Origin: Methylocystis sp.
Lineage (GTDB): Bacteria; Pseudomonadota; Alphaproteobacteria; Rhizobiales; Beijerinckiaceae
Reading direction: 5' to 3'
Length of the DNA stretch: 47,887 nt
Assembly: GCA_016177005.1 (NCBI GenBank)
Contig: JACOWC010000056.1
Location: 1 to 47,887, forward strand
In this document: piece after piece, positions 36,520-45,444 of the stretch
Layout of the letters: every line of letters starts with the position of its first letter
How positions within the stretch are numbered: position 1 is the stretch's first letter
The notes under the pieces: model-generated
Seen by the model: only the letters and a program-made list of their open reading frames with translations
The model's database searches: none
What the model was told of the DNA's origin: nothing
Made by a program: the position numbers and the translations under genes

Positions 36520-36549
36520 CGGCGCAATCCATCAGTGGCGCAAGGCGCG

Positions 36550-36668
36550 TTAGATCACGCTGCGTTTAGGCGAATCGCCTGAACGCGGATGACGTGATCG
36601 ATTCCAAAAACTTAGAGCGCGCTTTACGCGAAAAACCGGCGTCCACTTTTTCGCGAGCCGCGCTCTGG
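36550..36668 (+). repeat. Twin-hairpin palindromic element, copy B
   Basis: ttagatcacgctgcgtttaggcgaatcgcctgaacgcggatgacgtgatcgattccaaaaacttagagcgcgctttacgcgaaaaaccggcgtccactttttcgcgagccgcgctctgg. Confidence 0.92.
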
Positions 36669-36743
36669 CCGCTTTGGCCCGGCTGTCGGTTTTTTTGGCC
36701 GGTCGCGTTATGATAGAGAAATGACGAAGGAGATCGCCGCGCC

Positions 36744-37520
36744 ATGGCGTTGGAAGTCGCGCAGTTCATCTGCCTCAACGATAATTTCGGCCTGCTCGTC
36801 CATGAGCCGGAGCTCGGCGCGACCGCAAGCGTCGACGCGCCCGACGGCGAAGCGATCGCCAATGAGGCCGAGCGGCGCGGCTGGCCGCTGACGCATCTGC
36901 TGCTCACGCATCATCACGCCGATCACGTGCAGGGAACACAGACGCTCAAAACGCGCTTTCCGCACATGAAGGTCATCGGCGCCGCCAAGGATGCGCATCG
37001 ACTGCCGCCGCTCGATCGCGCGGTTTCAGAAGGCGACGTCGTCGAAATCGGCGAAGCGCGCGCGCGCGTCATCGAAACGCCCGGCCATACGCTCGGACAT
37101 ATCGCCTATTACTTCGAGGACGATGAAATCGTGTTTGTCGGCGACACGCTGTTCTCGCTCGGCTGCGGACGCGTTTTTGAGGGCACCATGGACATGATGC
37201 ATCTCACCCTCGAAGCGCTCGCCAATTTGCCCGGGGAAACGCTGGTCTATTGCGGCCACGAATATACCCAGGCGAACGCCAAATTCGCGCTCACCGTCGA
37301 CCCCGAAAATTCGGTGCTGCGCGCGCGGGCGCAAACCGTCGCCGATCTGCGCAAGGACGGAAAATTTACCCTGCCGACGACGATCACGCTCGAGAACGCC
37401 ACAAATCCGTTTCTGCGGGTCGAGGATCCGAGCGTAGCGGCCGCGATGGGCATGCGGGGCGCGGACCCTTCCGCGGTTTTCGCGGCGATGCGCGAGCGCA
37501 AGAACAAATTCGCCGCATGA
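36744..37520 (+). CDS. gloB: Hydroxyacylglutathione hydrolase (glyoxalase II)
   Basis: THLLLTHHHADHVQGTQTLK...ETPGHTLGHIAYYFEDDEIVFVGDTLFSLGCGRVFEGT. Confidence 0.95.
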   Translation: MALEVAQFICLNDNFGLLVHEPELGATASVDAPDGEAIANEAERRGWPLTHLLLTHHHADHVQGTQTLKTRFPHMKVIGAAKDAHRLPPLDRAVSEGDVVEIGEARARVIETPGHTLGHIAYYFEDDEIVFVGDTLFSLGCGRVFEGTMDMMHLTLEALANLPGETLVYCGHEYTQANAKFALTVDPENSVLRARAQTVADLRKDGKFTLPTTITLENATNPFLRVEDPSVAAAMGMRGADPSAVFAAMRERKNKFAA

Positions 37521-38086
37521 CGGGCGCGCTTTCGACGCAGGAGGTGGTGCGGCTTCTCGATCTGGCGCCCCATCCCGAGGGCGGCTTCTATCGCCAGACG
37601 TTTCGCGATTCCTCGTCGGTGGGCGGCGGCCGCGCCGCCTCGACGGCGATCTATTATCTGCTCTCCGGCGGCGGAGTCTCCGCCTGGCATCGGGTCGACG
37701 CCGCCGAAGTCTGGCACTTCTACGCCGGCGCCACGCTGGAGCTTAAGATCGCGACGTTAGATCACGCTGTGTTTAGGCAAAATCGCCTAAACGCAGATGA
37801 CGTGATCGATTTCAAAAGTTTAGAGCGCGCTTTGTGCGAAAAACCGGATTCCACTTTTTCGCAGCGCGCTCCAGGCGCGCCGACCGAAATCCTGCGACTT
37901 GGCGCCGAGCTCGGCGCTGGCGAGCGGCCGCAAGCCGTGGTCCCCGCAGGCGTCTGGCAGTCGGCGAAAAGTCTCGGCCGGGGTCCCGACGAATGGACTC
38001 TCGTCGGCTGCACAGTGGCGCCGGGCTTCGAATTCGCCGGCTTCGAACTGGCGCCGGCGGATTTCTCGCCCGACTGTTCAGCTTGA
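37517..38086 (+). CDS. DUF985-type cupin protein carrying an in-frame palindromic-element insertion
   Basis: MTGALSTQEVVRLLDLAPHPEGGFYRQTFRDSSS...VWHFYAGATLELKIAT-[LDHAVFRQNRLNADDVIDFKSLERALCEKPDSTFSQRA]-PGAPTEILRLGAELGAGERPQAVVPAGVWQSA. The ORF-list entry starts upstream at 37250; ATG at 37517 overlaps the gloB stop. Confidence 0.9.
   Translation: MTGALSTQEVVRLLDLAPHPEGGFYRQTFRDSSSVGGGRAASTAIYYLLSGGGVSAWHRVDAAEVWHFYAGATLELKIATLDHAVFRQNRLNADDVIDFKSLERALCEKPDSTFSQRAPGAPTEILRLGAELGAGERPQAVVPAGVWQSAKSLGRGPDEWTLVGCTVAPGFEFAGFELAPADFSPDCSA
37757..37872 (+). repeat. Twin-hairpin palindromic element, copy C (in frame inside the DUF985 cupin)
   Basis: ttagatcacgctgtgtttaggcaaaatcgcctaaacgcagatgacgtgatcgatttcaaaagtttagagcgcgctttgtgcgaaaaaccggattccactttttcgcagcgcgctcc. 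Confidence 0.95.
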
Positions 38087-41989: not shown

Positions 41990-44050
41990 CTATTCCGCTG
42001 CGATTACCCGCGGCGGCGTGAAGGCAATTTCGATCAGCGTGCCTTCGTTACGACTGCTCTTGACGCTGAAGGAGGCGTGATTCGCCTCGATCAAAGCCTT
42101 TGTCAGCGGCAGTCCAAGCCCCGTGCCGCTCGCCTTGCGCGCAGTGTCCACCCGCCGAAACGGTTCGAGCGCGGTTGCGACATCCTCCTCCGACATGCCG
42201 ATCCCGGTGTCCTTGACGCGAATGACGACAGCGCCGGCGTCATTGAGCGCGCTCGATACGATGACCTGCCCGCCCGGTTCGTTGAACTTCACCGCGTTCG
42301 ACAGAAGATTGAGAAGGATCTGCTTTAGGGAGCGCGGATCGGCGCGCAGCGGCGGCAGGCTCGGCGCAAGCGCCAAGCGCAAGACGACGCGCGCCTGATT
42401 GGCCTGCGCCTGCATCATCGACGCGCATTCGGCGATAACCGCATTGGCGTCCACGCGCGCGAAGGAAAGCTCCATCATGCCGGCTTCGATCTTGGAGAGG
42501 TCAAGAAGATCGTTGACGAGCGACAGGACATGCGCGCCGGAGGCGTGCATGTCCTTCAAATATTCTTTGTAGCGCGGAGAGCCGAGCGGCCCGAGACGCT
42601 CTTCCATCATCACTTCGGCGAAGCCGATGATGGCGTTGAGCGGCGTGCGAATCTCATGCGATACGCGGGTGAGAAAATCGGATTTCGCCGCATTGGCGCT
42701 TTCGGCGGCAAGCCGCGCCGCTTCAACCGCGGGGTCGCTTGAAGAGGCGCCTTCTTGCGCCTCGACCGACACGAGGAAGGTCGGTTTTCCCTCGACGGCA
42801 AGCGGGCGCAGCGCGAGGTCAACGGGAGCGCCGCCGGGCGGCGCCCGGGACAATGACAGTCGCGCGCGCGCGCCCGATAGAGCGCGCTGCGAAAAAGCTG
42901 AATCCGGTTTTTCGTCATCCGCACTTGGGCGATTCCGCTCAAATGCAGCGTGATCCAAAACCACGGACATGCGCTGAGCCAGGCTCTGCGCGTCGGAGGG
43001 GCTGAGGAGAGAGGCCAGACTGCGGTTCTCGCAGTCGCGCGCATCGGCGCCAAAGCATGCCGCGAACCGCGCATTGGCCCTCACGATCATTCCCTCAGCG
43101 GTCATGATCGCCAGCGGCGCGCCCGACAGGTCGAAAGCCGCGCCAAGCAGCGCGTTGTCCGATTTCGCCCGCGCGAGCCTCTCTTCGAGCGCGCGAGCGA
43201 GCGCCAAGGCGCTTTGCTCCGGACCCGGGGCGAGAAGTTCGCGGTTGCGCGGCGGCGTGGTCGGTTGATGCGTCTCCGGCGTGTCTTGTTTCGATTCGAG
43301 AGTGGCGGCCGCGTCCGACGCAATGATGCCGCCTTCCTTGAGCGTTCGCGCGATTTCATCGAAAGCCAATCGCTCGCTCGAGCTGAGCGACTCCAGCGCG
43401 TCCGATGCGACGCGCGGAGAAGATGGCGCGCGCAGCGCTACGACGTTGTCCCCTGACGCGCTAAAGGCGCTCCCTTCAGAGTTCGAAGCGCCGACAGCCT
43501 CCGCCGGCGGCTCGGCGGCGCCGCGCAATTCTTGCGCAGGCGAATCTGCGCGAACGCCGAGCGCCGCGATAACGAAAGAGACGCCGCTCTCCGTCTCCAG
43601 GCTGCGGCAAAGAAAGCTGAGCGTTTGCGCCGCGCCCACGAAGCCAAAGCGCAGTCGTTCAAGGCGCAGGCCCTGGTCGCTGCGCAGTTCGCCGACAAGC
43701 GCCGCCAGTCGGCGTGCGCCGGCATCGTCGTCGCGCAACAAGCGCTCGCCTGGAGCGCTTTCCGACCGGACGGAATCGTCTAGTCGATAAGAAATCGCTC
43801 CAGATTCAAAATGCTGGAGCAAAATCTTGTCGAAAAAGTCTATCAACTTTTTCGGATTTTGCTCTAGCGCTCCTACGTCCTCGCCAAAGACGGCGCAGGC
43901 TGAATCGTTGAGAAAATCGATGCGCAGGGGATCGCCGCTGGCGACGACGACCGGCGCGCCGGAGGCGTCAAGAGCAGAAAAAACAGGATCAGCCGCGACG
44001 CAAGCGGCTGCGCGCGCGCTGTGTTCGAGCTCCTCTTGCGAACCGCCCAT
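41990..44050 (-). CDS. PAS-domain hybrid-less sensor histidine kinase with two palindromic-element-derived inserts
   Basis: FLTRVSHEIRTPLNAIIGFAEVMMEERLGPLGSPRYKEYLKDMHASGAHVLSLVNDLLDLSKIEAG; LLNLLSNAVKFNEPGG; GTGLGLPLTKALIEANHA. Likely start MGGSQEELEHS at 44050; the ORF extends to 44149. Confidence 0.88.
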   Translation of the reverse strand: MGGSQEELEHSARAAACVAADPVFSALDASGAPVVVASGDPLRIDFLNDSACAVFGEDVGALEQNPKKLIDFFDKILLQHFESGAISYRLDDSVRSESAPGERLLRDDDAGARRLAALVGELRSDQGLRLERLRFGFVGAAQTLSFLCRSLETESGVSFVIAALGVRADSPAQELRGAAEPPAEAVGASNSEGSAFSASGDNVVALRAPSSPRVASDALESLSSSERLAFDEIARTLKEGGIIASDAAATLESKQDTPETHQPTTPPRNRELLAPGPEQSALALARALEERLARAKSDNALLGAAFDLSGAPLAIMTAEGMIVRANARFAACFGADARDCENRSLASLLSPSDAQSLAQRMSVVLDHAAFERNRPSADDEKPDSAFSQRALSGARARLSLSRAPPGGAPVDLALRPLAVEGKPTFLVSVEAQEGASSSDPAVEAARLAAESANAAKSDFLTRVSHEIRTPLNAIIGFAEVMMEERLGPLGSPRYKEYLKDMHASGAHVLSLVNDLLDLSKIEAGMMELSFARVDANAVIAECASMMQAQANQARVVLRLALAPSLPPLRADPRSLKQILLNLLSNAVKFNEPGGQVIVSSALNDAGAVVIRVKDTGIGMSEEDVATALEPFRRVDTARKASGTGLGLPLTKALIEANHASFSVKSSRNEGTLIEIAFTPPRVIAAE
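42879..42958 (-). repeat. Twin-hairpin palindromic element, copy F (shortened, in frame inside the histidine kinase)
   Basis: Minus strand ttggatcacgctgcatttgagcggaatcgcccaagtgcggatgacgaaaaaccggattcagctttttcgcagcgcgctct; lacks the 36-nt central segment of copy C. Confidence 0.88.
43752..43872 (+). repeat. Second-type twin-hairpin palindromic element, copy G (in frame inside the histidine kinase)
   Basis: ggagcgctttccgaccggacggaatcgtctagtcgataagaaatcgctccagattcaaaatgctggagcaaaatcttgtcgaaaaagtctatcaactttttcggattttgctctagcgctcc; two hairpins with the same GAAT loop and CGAAAAA/TTTTTCG arms. Confidence 0.85.
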
Positions 44051-44126
44051 GTGCCCTACACCGCCGCGACCGATGGCCGCTCGCCGCGCGCCTGTCAGGC
44101 GTCTCTCGCCCCGACGCCGATCGCGC

Positions 44127-44230
44127 CGCCTTTGGGCGGAATCGCCCAAGGGCAGATAACGTGATCGATCTCAATAGCTTAGAGCGCGCGCTCACGCGAA
44201 AATCCGGTTTTTTCCTTTTCGCCGCGCTCC
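44127..44230 (+). repeat. Twin-hairpin palindromic element, copy E
   Basis: ccgcctttgggcggaatcgcccaagggcagataacgtgatcgatctcaatagcttagagcgcgcgctcacgcgaaaatccggttttttccttttcgccgcgctcc. Confidence 0.88.
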
Positions 44231-44344
44231 AACGAGACGCCAATAAATTAATAGTGGTCGAATGCAAGGTCCACGATCGCCCATCGGACTTCCATATATT
44301 TTTGCATGGCCCGAAGCCTCGGCGCCTGCTGCGGCGCACAAAAT

Positions 44345-45306: not shown

Positions 45307-45313
45307 GCGCCGG

Positions 45314-45434
45314 TTTAGAGCGCGGCTCGCGAAAAAGTGGATGCCGGTTTTTCGCGCAAAGCGCGCTCTAAGCTTTTGGAGTCGATCACGTCATCTGCGT
45401 TTAGGCGATTCCGCCTAAACGCAGCGTGATCTAG
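45314..45434 (-). repeat. Twin-hairpin palindromic element, copy D (inverted orientation)
   Basis: Reverse complement ctagatcacgctgcgtttaggcggaatcgcctaaacgcagatgacgtgatcgactccaaaagcttagagcgcgctttgcgcgaaaaaccggcatccactttttcgcgagccgcgctct. Confidence 0.95.
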
Positions 45435-45444
45435 TCGCGCAATG

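Follow-up and report, generated by a model that had tools for sequence, protein, structure and literature searches.

The window, the whole 47,887-nt stretch of DNA analyzed here, belongs to a Methylocystis MAG (2.06 Mb, 65% complete, 193 contigs). At positions 37517 to 38086 (+), it carries a DUF985 (Cupin_5) gene of 189 aa that holds a repeated element in frame. The gene starts with an ATG that overlaps the stop codon of the upstream gloB-like gene, and it forms a complete 189-codon ORF, open across the whole element. Its family assignment rests on a full-length match to the Pfam Cupin_5/DUF985 profile (PF06172, E=6.9e-46) and on a DUF985 fold (Foldseek, 1znp). Positions 1 to 139 of the 139-position profile are stretched over residues 8 to 179, which places the insertion inside the DUF985 domain; around it, the protein reads ...LELKIAT-LDHAVFRQNRLNADDVIDFKSLERALCEKPDSTFSQRA-PGAPTEILRLG.... 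The initial annotation had described a continuous ORF gaining ~38 residues in frame from an element at 37757 to 37872. The open frame and the gain stand, as 114 nt equal 38 codons (residues 81 to 118), and the limits are refined to 37758 to 37871 (+; TAGATC...GCGCTC), the best placement given the net +114 nt relative to 29 orthologs and the other repeat copies. TA flanks both ends in most of 139 well-delimited copies; at this insert, the left TA is at 37758 to 37759 (+) and its right counterpart is CA (37872 to 37873). The best other copy is 94% identical (BLAST).

Alignment with relatives reveals the gene in its uninterrupted form. At the DNA level, comparison with 29 genus orthologs yields a single net +114-nt in-frame gap, located at ...AAGATCGCGACG / CAGGGCGC..., with both flanks retained; two close relatives lack a few additional bases at the gap, and the protein alignment is consistent with the DNA gap. 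Among the genus genomes searched, 36 besides the window genome contain DUF985 matches; wherever both halves are listed, the query aligns as two pieces omitting residues ~80 to 118, and the interrupted gene is found in the window genome only. An uninterrupted ancestral form had been proposed, and all 29 orthologs indeed align without the segment; no homologous loop is present in any of them. These alignments show that the DUF985 insert was acquired on the lineage leading to the window genome. The empty sites of present-day sisters read CGC|AGG, neither CTNG nor TA. The host part of the interrupted gene has an omega of 0.13 to 0.32 against ten sisters, similar to the values among uninterrupted copies (median 0.25), and contains no stop and no frameshift. 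In short, a mobile repeat has entered a conserved DUF985 gene with the reading frame kept and 38 aa gained.

Structurally, the AlphaFold2 prediction of the window protein, run with 24 genus relatives, is a normal cupin, with pLDDT of ~80 to 91 over most core blocks. The insert (residues 83 to 115) is almost entirely below pLDDT 50 and is placed between strands 74-79 and 123-128. Foldseek returns DUF985 structures as the best matches of the model (1znp, 1yud and 3loi), the top one being 1znp (E=2e-15, TMt 0.86). The model depicts the insert as a low-confidence surface loop joining two beta strands of a cupin with an intact core, in agreement with the earlier proposal that the element became coding sequence in a loop between strands.

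The element itself is composed of two abutting hairpins, at 37760 to 37807 (+) and 37823 to 37871 (+). Folded as single-stranded DNA, the window copy reaches -35.9 kcal/mol versus -16.1 for shuffled sequences (z=-7.35); the palindromic character first ascribed to this repeated DNA is borne out. Compensatory changes support both hairpins: of the cells in 55 copies, 96.4% pair, and changes on both sides affect 100 cells versus 38 in shuffles, with six compensated pairs in hairpin 1. The consensus, which includes two-fold variants from the alignments, is (C)TA-GATCACGCTGCRTTTRGGCGGAATCGCCYAAAYGCAGATRACGTGATCGATTCCAAAAGTTTAGAGCGCGCTTTRCGCGAAAAACCGGTTTCCACTTTTTCGCAGCGCGCTC-TA(G), and its ends form an imperfect inverted repeat (GATCACGCTGC / GAGCGCGCTGC). 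The length from TAGATC to GCGCTC is most often 114 (62/99 copies). No Rfam family matches the window above the gathering score.

The forward frame is open in 67 of the 73 non-genic 114-nt copies; being open is thus inherent in the element itself and is no proof of coding selection. The initial annotation had stated that the other two frames of the element stop at once. This holds for + frame 0, closed in all non-genic 114-nt copies, and for + frame 1, closed in most; the reverse strand, however, also has an open frame in roughly half of the non-genic copies from genomes other than G007 (none in G007). Synonymous and non-synonymous changes among intergenic copies are as expected in G007, with a slight synonymous excess elsewhere; since these counts lie near expectation, no case is made for selection on the insert peptide. 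Nor is a strong claim made for an orientation preference, the reverse frame being often closed and the sample coming partly from a forward-frame search.

Six copies of the element lie in the window (nhmmer), where three had initially been counted. Besides the DUF985 insert, an internally deleted copy with the frame kept (42874 to 42961, -; nhmmer 56 bits) is located inside a PAS sensor histidine kinase ORF (41993 to 44050, -, stop codon excluded; Pfam HisKA/HATPase_c/PAS_4) that is uninterrupted in sisters. A further copy lies just upstream of this kinase gene (44118 to 44234, +; nhmmer), and another sits between genes, upstream of the gloB-like gene (36545 to 36671, +; BLAST and nhmmer), with an empty site in sisters. 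The remaining two are a full-length copy (45312 to 45437, -; BLAST and nhmmer) and a partial one (510 to 600, +; nhmmer). Genome-wide, BLAST finds 41 full or near-full copies plus fragments, two protein-level searches give 94 and 111 matches with fragments and weak matches included, and a nucleotide-profile count over the retrieved loci gives 88 after deduplication; the window genome carries roughly 90 to 110 copies.

Beyond DUF985, about ten other recognizable Methylocystis genes carry the element in frame, as flagged by a hexamer-based two-sided coding test, and nearly all flagged copies use the forward frame. The hosts are a squalene/phytoene synthase and a PAS histidine kinase in the window genome; LeuS and GlpD in G001; a Y-family (ImuB-like) polymerase, a glycosyltransferase, a sensor kinase and an alpha/beta hydrolase in G007; a sensor kinase in G049 and G052; and a GNAT protein in G053. 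In a G007 RND adaptor ORF, the copy is near the signal peptide and the true start is uncertain. An in-frame copy in G001 (L284, C76:9886-10005) lies within a 1151-codon ORF that we take to encode an error-prone DNA polymerase alpha subunit (DnaE2-like); with the ImuB-like case of G007, this candidate would make two DNA-repair genes that carry the element. Long ORFs in reverse orientation (G019, G052, G051) failed the two-sided coding test, and ORFs open across copies with no family match (L009, L027, L029, L078, L083, L087, L089, L116, L228) were not counted.

Joined-flank queries recover uninterrupted matches in sister genomes for nine tested host genes; for the glycosyltransferase, the uninterrupted matches are distant only. 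Two insertions are shared between species: that of the GNAT gene in G053 and G012, and that of the kinase in G049 and G052. In the kinase, the N part of the host has an omega of 0.14 and the insert 0.92 (2 synonymous and 6 non-synonymous changes); in the GNAT gene, the insert has a dN of 0.048 and a dS of 0.163. Judged by these sequence comparisons, the host genes of both shared insertions are under purifying selection. Similar insertions are found in G007, a near-closed genome, and in the isolate Methylocystis sp. B8, there in the kinase. The LeuS insert covers approximately residues 241 to 278 of the sole leuS found in G001 (99% complete), and the sequence of the Neisseria LeuRS structure aligns on either side of it, before and in the editing domain. 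The leuS genes of 24 other genomes that match both sides of the site are without the insert, their left and right matches being adjacent in the DNA; the leuS of the window genome is only partly assembled. Because LeuS is essential in bacteria, the economical reading is that the insert-bearing LeuS of G001 would be a working enzyme. An AlphaFold model of this protein (pLDDT 45, pTM 0.33) was set aside.

The flanks of the element reveal its target. Over 139 well-delimited copies, GATCACG is preceded by C (99), T (119) and A (126), and GCGCTC is followed by T (124), A (117) and G (85); TA flanks the element on both sides, within a CTAG-like site. In Methylocystis rosea, an empty paralog of such a site (L153) matches the joined flanks through a single TA and provides one clean empty site consistent with the TA target duplication of an IS630/Tc1-mariner-type MITE. 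The genic empty sites in sisters are mostly C|TNG, that is, a Leu codon (HK, GNAT, GlpD, LeuS, SQS).

These features suggest how an insertion could be frame-neutral. A small non-autonomous mobile element of ~112 bp with two abutting hairpins would insert at TA, preferably within CTAG, leaving TA at both ends, so that for a standard copy 112 bp plus the 2-bp duplication would give 114 nt, or 38 codons. Inside a coding frame, the TAG of a CTAG target cannot itself be a codon, so two host phases are left, and we infer that one of these gives the open frame. As the forward strand starts (C)TA|GAT, this frame would be nTA-GAT-CAC; an in-frame Leu codon (CTN) as target, entered in forward orientation, would yield one open frame and a gain of 38 residues. 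Copies in surface loops of tolerant proteins would survive. In DUF985, the copy presumably entered a loop that joins two beta strands once the lineage had split from its sequenced relatives, and the insert is probably translated into a product that still folds and works.

As for its mobilization, TA duplication has been shown for IS630/Tc1-mariner transposases (PMC2170065), and a CTAG preference of IS630 is stated in the title of a paper cited in PMC2170065. Together, the two form the signature of this group, and mobilization in trans by a transposase of this type is our best guess, for and against which the balance is about even. The inverted repeats of IS630-type transposons in G007 begin with TAGAGCG, which matches the start of the element's 3' end, and this heptamer is all that the element ends share with the G007 IS630 copies. 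The element resembles IS630/Tc1-mariner MITEs in having TA on both sides, a CTAG preference and ends similar to local IS630 inverted repeats; it differs in its imperfect short inverted repeats, its two internal hairpins and the lack of an identified autonomous partner. RUP and Correia/NEMIS elements are examples of such MITEs. In G007, one full element copy (L176, C1:1459976-1460386) abuts the right end of an IS630-type transposon, with the TA in common. DDE_3 transposase was not detected in G049, a genome in which the element is present.

A first BLAST and the exact core pattern, which is found only in Methylocystis-group genomes among the GTDB species, pointed to a restriction to the genus; this was overturned by relatives in Sinorhizobium and by a covariance model. 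A distant search revealed full-length relatives of 72 to 75% identity in replicons of Sinorhizobium meliloti and Sinorhizobium fredii, and partial relatives of 85 to 89% identity in Terrarubrum, with ends, spacer and hairpins as in the element. The covariance model finds matches in 171 of the 377 good genomes of the order (74 of 137 genera) and in 19 of 281 good genomes sampled from the class. Viral contigs contain no match to the core pattern, and phages none to the insert peptide. In the 29 loci from other genera, no internal insertion equals those of Methylocystis in clarity.

Several alternatives bear on the DUF985 locus. The insertion may in effect have inactivated or weakened the gene, whose frame would remain open for no other reason than the frame neutrality of the element and the recency of the insertion. 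This would fit the restriction of the interrupted gene to the window genome, the possible youth of an insert whose best other copy is 94% identical, and the open frames that are normal for the element anywhere; we nevertheless consider it unlikely, while granting it some weight, given the low omega of the host part with neither stop nor frameshift, the modeled loop on an intact core, and the persistence of the same kind of insertion both in two species pairs and in the single leuS detected in G001. Conversely, the 38 residues may have been co-opted for a function, such as binding, and retained for it. The kinase insert, with an omega of 0.92 on few changes, speaks against this, as do the unrelated nature of the host proteins and the low confidence of the loop in the DUF985 model, so that co-option appears very improbable even with the same peptide in several proteins, two insertions kept across species, and a GNAT insert with dN below dS.

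A repeat misjoined into DUF985 during metagenome assembly could be suspected in a MAG of 193 contigs, yet both DUF985 flanks are the same gene, the element is shorter than a typical read, and similar insertions exist in near-closed G007 and isolate B8; we give an artefact almost no credence. The other alternative concerns the mover, the element being in that case a REP/REPIN moved by a Y1 (RAYT) transposase and not an IS630-type MITE. Its double hairpin is like that of BIME/REPIN elements, and REP-decorated proteins have been described (PMC3733652), but TA occurs on both sides of most copies and the ends are neither GTAG nor CGTC. Furthermore, Y1_Tnp was not detected in G007, G049, G022 or G021, of which G007 and G049 are element-rich, and gave one frame-broken match in G000. 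We rejected a Y1/RAYT mobilizer, none being detected in the element-rich genomes, and regard this origin as improbable. The explanation we favor, and hold to be highly probable, is a non-autonomous TA/CTAG hairpin element that formed a frame-neutral insert in a DUF985 loop. Points that weigh against it are the CGC|AGG reading of the DUF985 site in present-day sisters, the failure to detect DDE_3 in element-bearing G049, the openness of the frame in non-genic copies and the incompleteness of the MAG.

Rickettsia palindromic elements (RPE; Ogata 2000, 2002, as described in PMC10969869 and PMC3733652), cited as precedent in the initial annotation, are dispersed palindromes of 100 to 150 bp found in frame in unrelated genes with one conserved peptide. 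The present element shows the same behavior, and the precedent is apt in this respect, with no sequence kinship detected by the core pattern among GTDB genomes outside the genus; unlike RPE, the element has a free-living methanotroph as host, a Leu-flanked 38-residue peptide, a TA/CTAG signature and order-wide relatives. Within the same order, RIME (Rhizobium/Sinorhizobium) and Bru-RS1/RS2 (Brucella) are likewise palindromic dispersed repeats, and the dispersed double-palindrome architecture of ~100 to 115 bp is found here in Sinorhizobium and related genera. These Hyphomicrobiales repeats are known from intergenic regions, whereas in-frame copies are frequent in the present element. Judged by its distribution and architecture, it probably belongs to the RIME/Bru-RS kind. 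REP sequences in ORFs (GTAG and CGTC families, PMC3733652) are also palindromes, encoding 20 to 80 residues in free-living bacteria, but they are units of 20 to 40 bp with tetranucleotide tags and, for the GTAG kind, RAYT association. Coxiella QMITE1 and QMITE2 (PMC5896051) are MITEs that overlap ORFs, some in frame; they differ in size (300-400 and 150-190 bp), in their variable direct repeats and in taxon.

The core of the initial annotation holds. The DUF985 insert is a well-documented instance of a known phenomenon, the insertion of mobile palindromes into proteins, which extends further here than first noted. Palindromes that code for protein are most familiar from Rickettsia, an obligate intracellular genus for which relaxed selection is an easy excuse; in free-living methanotrophs, the same outcome is accompanied by empty sites, by insertions shared between species and by an essential gene among the hosts. 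How the target and length of the element add up suggests why insertions can be benign. We lean toward the broader proposition that order-wide palindromic elements of free-living Alphaproteobacteria repeatedly write the same 38-residue peptide into unrelated proteins, an essential tRNA synthetase included, because a TA/CTAG target, a 114-nt net length and a single open frame make one phase harmless. If so, Methylocystis would offer, outside Rickettsia, a natural setting in which to study how mobile DNA makes proteins grow, and whether mobile repeats add usable loops to proteins would be directly testable in culturable bacteria.

Some minor observations concern individual copies and their numbers. 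One ABC-transporter-like ORF from a sister genus (L317) is open across a short copy close to its start. The annotated Terrarubrum pxpB protein (L288:1497-2237) begins inside an element copy (MNVIDSKSLERDWREKPVPTFSHPAPG...), so that the start is misplaced or else the element supplies the start codon. Next to a further copy, the flanking sequence (L029:983-1708, -) resembles a stretch of the window's PAS kinase (LIDFFDKILL..HFESGAISYR..DSV.SES), a paralogous fragment beside an element. Copy number varies within the genus from none or one in G002, G003, G008, G010, G013, G015, G021 and others to well over a hundred in G007; such sharp differences suggest bursts or losses.
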